Shown: piece after piece, positions 21,130 to 22,438 of the stretch
How the letters are laid out: each line of letters opens with the position of its first letter
Position numbering within the stretch: the stretch's first letter is position 1
Assembly: GCA_022448925.1 (NCBI GenBank)
Contig: JAKVCP010000009.1
Coordinates: 1-64,000 of the forward strand
DNA length: 64,000 bases
Direction: 5' to 3'
From: Paracoccaceae bacterium
GTDB lineage: Bacteria; Pseudomonadota; Alphaproteobacteria; Rhodobacterales; Rhodobacteraceae
Translations under genes and position numbers: made by a program
Notes under the pieces: model-generated
What the model saw: the letters and a program-made list of their open reading frames with translations, nothing else
What the model was told of the DNA's origin: nothing
Databases searched by the model: none

Positions 21130-21771
21130 ATGACTACGAAATATCTTCCCGGCATTCTTGCCATGGCCGCCATCGTTGTGGCCTCAAACATCCTGGTACA
21201 GTTCCTTTTCGGAAACTGGCTGACCTGGGGTGCTTTCACCTATCCGCTCGCGTTCCTTGTCACCGATCTGATGAACCGCATCTACGGGACCGCCGCCGCA
21301 CGGCGCGTGGTGTTTACCGGTTTCGTCGCCGGGGTCATCTGTTCCTTGATCGGCACCCAGATCATGTTGCAGGGGGACGGGTTCACCTATCCGGCCGTCA
21401 CGCTGCGCATTGCCATCGGTTCAGGACTGGCGTTCTTGACCGCACAGCTTCTGGACGTGGCGATTTTTGATCGTCTGCGTGACGGTGCCTGGTGGCGTGC
21501 GCCACTGGCCTCGACGCTGATTGGGTCCAGTATCGACACAGCCCTGTTCTTTACCATTGCGTTCTCGGCAGGCCTTAGCTGGCTTGAACCGGCCAATGAC
21601 GTGTCCTGGGCCGGGGAAATCCTGCCGCTGATCGGCTTCGGGCCTGACGCACCGCTTTGGGTTTCGCTTGCTGTCGCCGATTGGATGGTCAAGCTGTGCC
21701 TCGCTTTGGTTGCCCTTGTGCCATTCCGTTTGATTGTTTTGCGGGCACTTGGGGCTGCACCGGCCAGCTGA
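21130..21771 (+). CDS. yhhQ: Queuosine precursor transporter, YhhQ/VUT family
   Basis: A 213-residue inner-membrane protein with about six helices. FTYPLAFLVTDLMNRIYG is the family signature, and the central GSSIDTALFFTIAFSAG and late SLAVADWMVKLCLAL are also typical of COG1738 proteins. E. coli YhhQ takes up the queuosine precursors preQ0 and preQ1 used for tRNA wobble-base modification. It lies alone between the phytase-like gene and the structured arfB leader. The ribosome-binding site is weak, and possible alternative stems precede it. Confidence 0.9.
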   Translation: MTTKYLPGILAMAAIVVASNILVQFLFGNWLTWGAFTYPLAFLVTDLMNRIYGTAAARRVVFTGFVAGVICSLIGTQIMLQGDGFTYPAVTLRIAIGSGLAFLTAQLLDVAIFDRLRDGAWWRAPLASTLIGSSIDTALFFTIAFSAGLSWLEPANDVSWAGEILPLIGFGPDAPLWVSLAVADWMVKLCLALVALVPFRLIVLRALGAAPAS

Positions 21772-21813: not shown

Positions 21814-21849
21814 TAAAGGTGGTTTCAACAAACGAAAGGAGGTGATCCA

Positions 21850-21906
21850 GTGTCTAGAGCGTCATTGGAGAAAGGTGTCGGAACAGTTCGGGAGACCCGC
21901 TTCTAG
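21850..21906 (+). CDS. Possible 18-residue leader peptide before arfB
   Basis: GTG at 21850 opens MSRASLEKGVGTVRETRF and ends at TAG 21906. AGGAGG lies 7 nt upstream at ideal distance, inside the 17-nt stretch complementary to 16S rRNA, giving an extremely strong ribosome site for such a short frame. The peptide has no run of one amino acid, so it is not a classical amino-acid attenuator. Its codons lie in the 5' half of the folded leader, so ribosomes on it would break the closing stem. It could be chance, because the same bases also form the RNA structure. Confidence 0.35.
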   Translation: MSRASLEKGVGTVRETRF

Positions 21907-21977
21907 GGCAATCCCATTGGGGTGAAACCCCCGAATTGGCACTGGTCTAACCGACCCCGCCTCCGATAAGTCTCGTA

Positions 21978-22008
21978 GGGCCGCCTTATTTGGCGGCCCT
22001 ATCTTGTT
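21978..22008 (+). terminator. GC-rich hairpin 22 nt before the arfB start
   Basis: GGGCCGCC (21978-21985), loop TTATTT, GGCGGCCC (21992-21999), then the T-rich TATCTTGTT. This is an intrinsic-terminator-like hairpin with a broken T-run. The 22 nt left before the arfB ATG cannot hold a promoter, so arfB transcripts must read through it or start within the leader. Confidence 0.6.
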
Positions 22009-22021
22009 ACAAGGCGACCCC

Positions 22022-22438
22022 ATGCTGCACATCAACGATCAGATCTCTATTGCGGATTGGGAATTGACCGAACAATTCATCCGCGCGTCGGGGCCTGGCG
22101 GGCAGAACGTGAACAAGGTCTCTACCGCAGTGGAACTTCGCTTTGAGGCCGCGCGCTCGCCGCATCTGAGTGACCCAGTCAAGGCGCGGCTGAAGCGTCT
22201 GGCAGGACGGCGCTGGACACGAGAGGGCACGCTTGTATTGCACGTCGATGAAACCCGAAGCCAGGCACGAAATCGGGATTTGGCCCGTGAGAGACTGGCG
22301 GAGTTGATCCGAAAAGCGCTGATTGCACCAAAACGCAGAGTTCCGACCAAACCAAGTTTCGGGGCCAAGCAAAGGCGCTTGAAGGCCAAGAAGGTGCGCA
22401 GTGAGGTCAAATCCCTACGCGGCAAGGTCGACGAGTGA
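22022..22438 (+). CDS. arfB: Alternative ribosome-rescue peptidyl-tRNA hydrolase ArfB
   Basis: A 138-residue protein with the catalytic GGQ in ASGPGGQNVNKVSTAVEL (about residues 22-39) and the basic C-terminal tail (many KAK/KKVR residues) that enters the empty mRNA channel. It frees ribosomes stalled without a stop codon by hydrolysing the peptidyl-tRNA, as a backup or parallel to tmRNA. ATG 22022 is chosen because it begins MLHINDQISI like other ArfB proteins; TTG 22004 in frame would lie in the terminator tail. It follows the structured leader with 16S complementarity, which may couple its synthesis to the state of translation. Confidence 0.94.
   Translation: MLHINDQISIADWELTEQFIRASGPGGQNVNKVSTAVELRFEAARSPHLSDPVKARLKRLAGRRWTREGTLVLHVDETRSQARNRDLARERLAELIRKALIAPKRRVPTKPSFGAKQRRLKAKKVRSEVKSLRGKVDE

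Follow-up and report, generated by a model that had tools for sequence, protein, structure and literature searches.

In the 64,000-nucleotide window analyzed here (positions 1 to 64,000 of Paracoccaceae contig JAKVCP010000009.1, forward strand), a folded element with a very short reading frame lies between a Vut_1 transporter gene (21130..21771) and arfB (22022..22438), all on the plus strand. The arfB product is a peptidyl-tRNA hydrolase of the RF-1/GGQ type, identified from the open reading frame and a match to the Pfam RF-1 domain (2e-21). The element starts with a maximal Shine-Dalgarno (SD) sequence, GAAAGGAGGTGATCCAG (21834..21850), which is exactly complementary to the 16S rRNA 3' tail over all 17 nt, as judged from the sequence, the alignment and the duplex energy. 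A mini-ORF (21850..21906; MSRASLEKGVGTVRETRF) consists of the GTG start codon (21850-21852), 17 further codons and a TAG stop (21904-21906), as read from the window sequence and from an alignment of 30 sequences, in agreement with the 18-codon GTG frame proposed in the initial annotation. The SD core GGAGGTG (21838..21844) is the 5' arm of helix P1, and the internal anti-SD CGCCTCC (21958..21964) is the 3' arm; both were placed by the consensus fold and pair probabilities. The 5' arm of helix P2 (21846..21853, from the consensus fold) contains the GTG start and, in the window, has a mismatch at the outermost consensus pair, and the 3' arm (21862..21869) is defined by the consensus fold and pair probabilities. 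A hairpin search located an intrinsic-terminator-like hairpin, P3 (21976..22001), with a 10-bp stem and a 6-nt loop, which is followed by TCTTGTTA and is separated from the arfB ATG at 22022 by 20 nt. The tract after P3 (22000-22009, TATCTTGTTA) is U-poor in the window and in its sister locus L006, and several relatives are U-richer. The fold z-score is -3.61, and none of 200 shuffles was equally low. The folded leader described in the initial annotation is therefore present as stated, except that its 8-bp closing stem is 7 bp long in the alignment; likewise, the strong hairpin ahead of arfB is terminator-like, with a spacing of 20 nt rather than the 22 nt that had been given.

The 16S 3' end (...GCGGCTGGATCACCTCCTTTCT) was taken from five loci of relatives (L180-L184, in four genomes); a search for the 16S 3' end in the window's own draft genome yielded no match, and the comparison of the tail refers to the 16S of relatives only. 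Against these ends, the 17-nt complement claimed for 21834-21850 is exact. It extends to the C of the 16S sequence CCTTTCT, which we take to be the mature 16S end, with helix 45 presumably starting just upstream of CTGGATC. The next-longest complement to the 16S tail on either strand of the 64-kb window is 10 nt. In a scan of 63,980 20-mers, taken at every second start on both strands of the window, the duplex energy with the 16S tail was about -33 kcal/mol at 21834-21850 vs -20 at the best other place, and the 20 nt upstream of arfB itself gave -7.2. Within the 3.48-Mb draft, AAGGAGGTGATCC has a single exact site, and three sites occur at one mismatch. For comparison, the window was aligned with 29 other Rhodobacterales sequences; the 96% identical sister L006 was left out of this alignment of 30. 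In the alignment, 16 of the 17 SD columns are invariant or at least 90% identical. The locus L018, which has no site within 3 substitutions, was dropped from the analysis.

Sites of this kind are not a peculiarity of the window. The exact site GAAAGGAGGTGATCCNRTGTC is present in 36 of 289 alphaproteobacterial genomes, never more than once per genome, and a reversed-pattern control gave no matches in the same 289 genomes. With one mismatch allowed, 36 of 67 genomes of the class carry a site, compared with none of 182 genomes from other classes of the phylum (a split counted from the kinship column). A contig scan found the site in at least 119 stretches; among the 80 matches listed, three are titled just Proteobacteria and the remaining 77 bear names that we take, from general knowledge, to be alphaproteobacterial taxa. 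When the window's own genome and 40 relatives were searched at the DNA level, 24 of the 41 gave a match, six of these outside the family. Among 120 genomes of the family, 95 have a site with at most two mismatches and 25 have none. After removal of five exact repeats over 140 nt from 174 loci, 169 distinct loci remained. Of these, 91 start with GTG and 78 with ATG, one or the other having been demanded by the pattern that fetched most of them, and the hairpin search detected a terminator-like hairpin in 133. The element is thus a stand-alone gene of a kind spread over Alphaproteobacteria, with a length estimated at about 170 nt from the positions of the promoter and the hairpin. One genome of another family (G036) carries two members, L199 at C1:805112, whose MSHCH frame is of the CC2171 type, and a second at C1:2922049 with a frame of the MSHG type. 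Such sites were also seen in five IMG/VR contigs (L174-L177 and L179), with Bradyrhizobium-like, Brevundimonas-like or VSHCH frames; these are either misplaced host pieces or cases of prophage carriage.

The helices that enclose the SD and the start codon form in most of the Rhodobacterales sequences. The consensus P1 pairs GGAGGUG with C[AG][CU]CUCC (alignment columns 14-20/153-159), and the consensus P2 pairs UCCAGUGU with AUAUUGGA-like sequences, with the start codon inside. In the minimum-energy fold of the window, CGCCTCC at 21958-21964 pairs with GGAGGTG at 21838-21844, which bears out the proposal that CCTCC hides GGAGG. The mean pair probability exceeds 0.5 in 29 of 30 sequences for P1, the window included (the exception is L062), and in 27 of 30 for P2 (exceptions L009, L019 and L081). 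Averaged over the 30 sequences, the SD core is unpaired with a probability of 0.02 and the start codon with one of 0.10; in five of the sequences, the start codon has values of 0.33-0.44. The named pairs are present in 98.1% of cells vs 93.9% in shuffles and 46-58% when slid. All two-sided changes in the 30 sequences fall in P3 (10 of 12 consensus pairs), with only one-sided changes in P1 and P2; such one-sided change would be compatible with an SD strand fixed by the 16S, yet it is weaker proof of pairing.

The cost of opening this structure was compared with 20 shuffles for each of 81 loci, at most 16 per group. Of 16 Rhodobacterales loci, 15 exceed the shuffle mean (five exceed all 20 shuffles; for the window, two of the 20 shuffles reached its cost), as do all seven Bradyrhizobium-type loci (three exceed all 20 shuffles). 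Elsewhere, the shuffle mean is exceeded in one of 16 VS-type, one of 16 MSS-type, two of 11 other and seven of 15 MSHG-type loci. SD masking is thus a feature of some lineages, and class-wide masking, which the Rhodobacterales result had led us to expect, was rejected, the excess being confined to Rhodobacterales and Bradyrhizobium-type loci. Another helix, between codons 3-5 and the stretch before the terminator, was examined in the 116 of the 169 distinct loci with a detected hairpin of at least 8 bp. VSH loci pair in this way in 18 of 28 cases (p 0.05 or better), as CAUUGUC//GACAAUG, CAUUGUC//GGCAAUG (which includes a G-U pair), CAUUGC//GCAAUG or CAUCGC//GCGAUG. MSHG loci do so in part, in eight of 20 cases at p 0.05, as CAUGGUU//GACCAUG. 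The remaining groups do not, with counts of one of 29 in Rhodobacterales, two of 17 in MSS, one of four in Bradyrhizobium-type and three of 18 in other loci. Two loci with frames past 50 codons that are probably chance sites (L126 and L178), L066, truncated at the end of its locus, and all viral loci were omitted from both the opening-cost and the helix analyses.

At the gathering threshold, Rfam reports nothing in the window. Nevertheless, four of 12 related loci, from Methylobacterium, Bosea, Brevundimonas and Falsiroseomonas, match RF01867 (CC2171) at this threshold, and the window element aligns with the same model over its full length (model positions 1-159 of 159; window positions 21826..22000) at 42.8 bits, with an E-value of about 4e-8 to 4.9e-8. 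As this score is below the gathering score of 75, we call the element a homologue of CC2171 and not a filed member. RF01867 matches at an E-value of 0.001 or better were obtained in 61 of 289 genomes of the class, nine of them above the cut-off, with no match in the other 228; among 14 control genomes, only Caulobacter matched. Two of three scanned Bradyrhizobium loci, which have 14-codon frames, match the model as well (59.0 and 41.7 bits). The window element shares with CC2171, a Caulobacter sRNA, the 5' segment CAACAA-CGAAAGGAGGUGAUCCAGUGUCU and the 3' hairpin; in contrast, the helix of the model between codons 3-5 and GACAAUG is absent from the window, where P1 and P2 are found instead. 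The Rfam 15 paper gives one additional covarying pair for RF01867 (PMC11701678), and in a study on Mesorhizobium huakuii a predicted sRNA is assigned to this family (PMC5596092). Among the papers listed in literature searches, we recognized none that joins CC2171 to rreB or rreR, which does not prove that none is in print.

Two genes that Hahn and colleagues are said to have described in 2017 closely resemble the element. The rreR gene of Rhodobacter and Roseobacter reportedly encodes 18 residues behind an extended SD of at least 16 nt complementary to the 16S 3' end. The rreB gene of Bradyrhizobium reportedly yields a 165-nt, 30S-binding mRNA with a GTG start, 14 residues and a 17-nt SD, which is said to co-sediment with the 30S subunit, to be weakly translated and to be stabilized when the start codon is changed to a stop. 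With rreB, the window element shares the 17-nt SD, the GTG start and the short frame, and it differs from the 14 codons and the peptide of rreB. With rreR, it has in common an SD above the 16-nt bound (17 nt here), the 18-codon frame and the lineage; to our knowledge, there is no difference between the two. The family of the window, in which 95 of the 120 genomes have the site with at most two mismatches, is taken to be of the Rhodobacter/Roseobacter lineage, judging from named loci with the same order of Vut_1 and the element. Because the frame lengths match those reported for rreR and rreB, the element is taken as the local rreR: it is almost certainly a gene of the rreR/CC2171 type and very probably the one already published as rreR. 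The arfB neighborhood, the masking by P1 and P2 and the relation to CC2171 come from the present analysis.

Proximity to arfB is frequent within the window's family. Among the 120 family genomes, 95 have a site with at most two mismatches, 112 have arfB and 94 have both; 18 have arfB and no such site. The pattern misses some elements, given that a genome with arfB and no patterned site (G008) has a matching stretch in the DNA search. For the distance count, second two-mismatch sites in G331, G402, G361 and G346 were dropped beforehand and the two-mismatch site of G014 was kept despite its ACG start triplet. In 71 of the 94 genomes with both, arfB lies on the same strand at most 450 nt downstream of the element, in six it is 0.7-3.4 kb away and in 17 it is elsewhere. 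The synteny is thus genuine, and the expected conservation beside arfB was indeed observed. The association is not constant, however: across the class and beyond, arfB is found in the fetched flanks of just 27 of 174 loci, once on the opposite strand, which does not support an origin of the element as an arfB leader, as the initial annotation had it. In 31 Rhodobacterales loci, which include the window and its sister and for which arfB starts are approximate because they come from tblastn, the distance from the hairpin to arfB is within 33 nt in 10, within 60 nt in 14 and within 200 nt in 21; arfB is further away in four and was not seen in six, one of which is cut 242 nt downstream. The Vut_1 gene is located upstream on the same strand in all 31 loci, more constantly than arfB, and the order of the element and arfB may therefore simply be inherited.

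A TTGACA promoter box at -47 to -50 from the SD was found in 21 of the 30 Rhodobacterales sequences and is absent from the window. An imperfect palindrome, CACAAAATCTGTG, is present with at most two mismatches in the promoter spacer, about 40 nt before the SD, in 18 of the 30 sequences, including L011, L012 and L015-L017 and not including the window; it is possibly an operator. The gap between the hairpin and arfB, 20 nt here and no more than about 33 nt in 10 of the 31 loci, is too short for a promoter, as had been noted for the window. This close spacing makes read-through from the promoter of the element into arfB likely in part of the family, and read-through, regulated or unregulated, may also feed arfB in the window.

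The initial annotation went further and proposed an attenuator, in which translation of the 18-codon frame, or stalling on it, decides whether the terminator forms, which would tie production of the rescue factor to ribosome distress. The E. coli arfA and B. subtilis brfA-type rescue genes are controlled by translation trouble. The present locus resembles them in having a ribosome-rescue gene downstream, but in those systems control is exerted on the rescue mRNA itself and here folding reveals no switching of arfB. The frequent placement of arfB within 450 nt, the short hairpin-ATG gap and the U-poor tract that follows the hairpin in both the window and L006 would all be compatible with attenuation. 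The mechanism was examined by folding the RNA with its frame either free or occupied, with truncation before the 3' arm of the terminator and with 20 shuffles of the upstream letters. The terminator pairs have probabilities above 0.9 in all 30 sequences in either state of the frame, contrary to the proposed decision, and the 5' arm of the terminator pairs upstream with a probability of 0.40 on average vs 0.61 in shuffles. No alternative antiterminator was found by folding in the window, and none is general in the 30 sequences; three (L012, L015 and L065) stand out in that the 5' arm of their terminator is paired upstream more than in nearly all shuffles, which speaks in favor of attenuation. 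Moreover, the stop codon is 69 nt before the hairpin, and the element is kept in the family genomes in which arfB is distant or elsewhere, as well as in the many loci of the class that have no arfB in their fetched flanks. There is no sign in these models that the element switches arfB on or off; the attenuator was rejected, and we regard it as highly improbable.

The reading frame itself is remarkably constant. It has 18 codons in all 30 Rhodobacterales sequences, without a single indel in the SD and frame columns, and the stop is always at codon 19, as TGA in 15 sequences, TAG in 13, TAA in two and TGG never; exchange of stop codons without TGG has a chance of 9e-7 under independence, although the sequences are not independent. 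The other two reading frames contain stops in 14 and 16 of the 30 sequences. Beyond this order, 36 of 40 MSHG-type loci likewise have 18 codons. Such constancy of start, length and stop, together with some common residues (GVGT), could indicate a gene for a functional 18-residue microprotein, with the long SD serving its expression. The codon data point the other way: the synonymous share of codon changes is above the column-shuffle mean in none of eight groups, a test of low power for frames of 14-25 codons, and in six of the eight, variation is lowest at third codon positions, the reverse of a normal protein gene. The low third-position variability might reflect codon choice or constraint on the RNA. 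Furthermore, frames mostly range from 14 to 36 codons, with the length fixed within lineages and the peptides diverging widely between them, and part of the conserved residues fall in paired segments (P2, and the codons 3-5 helix of VSH and MSHG loci). Given constant frame columns with no synonymous excess, the start, length and stop of the frame look selected and the peptide does not, and a functional microprotein appears distinctly improbable.

A further possibility is a trans-acting sRNA that either pairs with mRNAs or serves as a decoy for the 16S tail and lowers SD-dependent translation, with translation of the frame being incidental. Rfam files the CC2171 family as sRNA, the element has its own promoter box and terminator hairpin, and in several lineages SD masking does not go beyond chance, all of which would fit such a role. 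However, maintenance of the frame through stop exchange would be needless for a pure decoy, and only at very high abundance could such an RNA act against the ribosome pool; we consider this explanation unlikely, if less so than the microprotein. The second suggestion of the initial annotation, a free small RNA able to bind 30S subunits, is supported here at the level of sequence. The explanation that we prefer, with confidence and doubt about equally balanced, is that the element is a small mRNA that is opened by the 30S subunit and whose fate is set by ribosome binding. The RNA would fold shut during synthesis, with the SD and the start codon in P1 and P2, and would be opened by a 30S subunit, given that pairing of all 17 nt with the tail (about -33 kcal/mol) is predicted to outweigh the roughly 10 kcal/mol that opening of P1 and P2 requires. 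Through its very long SD, the RNA would then hold the subunit, translation of the short frame would be slow, and ribosome binding or translation would determine the lifetime of the RNA. What matters under this mechanism would be the encounter between the RNA and the ribosome and not the peptide, and the RNA might sense or buffer the free 30S subunits. Less favorable to this explanation are the restriction of SD masking to some lineages, the two shuffles that reach the opening cost of the window, the one-sided changes in P1 and P2 together with the sequences in which these helices or the pairing of the start codon are weak, the lack of the TTGACA box in the window, and the 25 family genomes without a site and 228 class genomes without an RF01867 match. 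In the window's genus, with few U after the hairpin and no room for an arfB promoter, transcription would probably read through into arfB from the same promoter.

A broader proposal, which we put forward only tentatively and which is rather doubtful as a whole, is that CC2171, rreB, rreR and their sphingomonad, mesorhizobial and other counterparts are one Alphaproteobacteria-wide gene, the RNA of which would be opened by the 16S tail over its full length and would measure encounters with free 30S subunits, in which the length of the frame and not the peptide would count, the life of which would report or buffer the ribosome supply, and which would be wired to arfB by read-through in the window's family. 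The rreR element ties together the separately named entries CC2171, rreB and rreR, and the labels arfB leader, sRNA and microprotein each cover part of such loci. If an RNA gene with a nearly longest-possible SD has been kept across the class while its peptide drifted, its function is probably ribosome binding itself.
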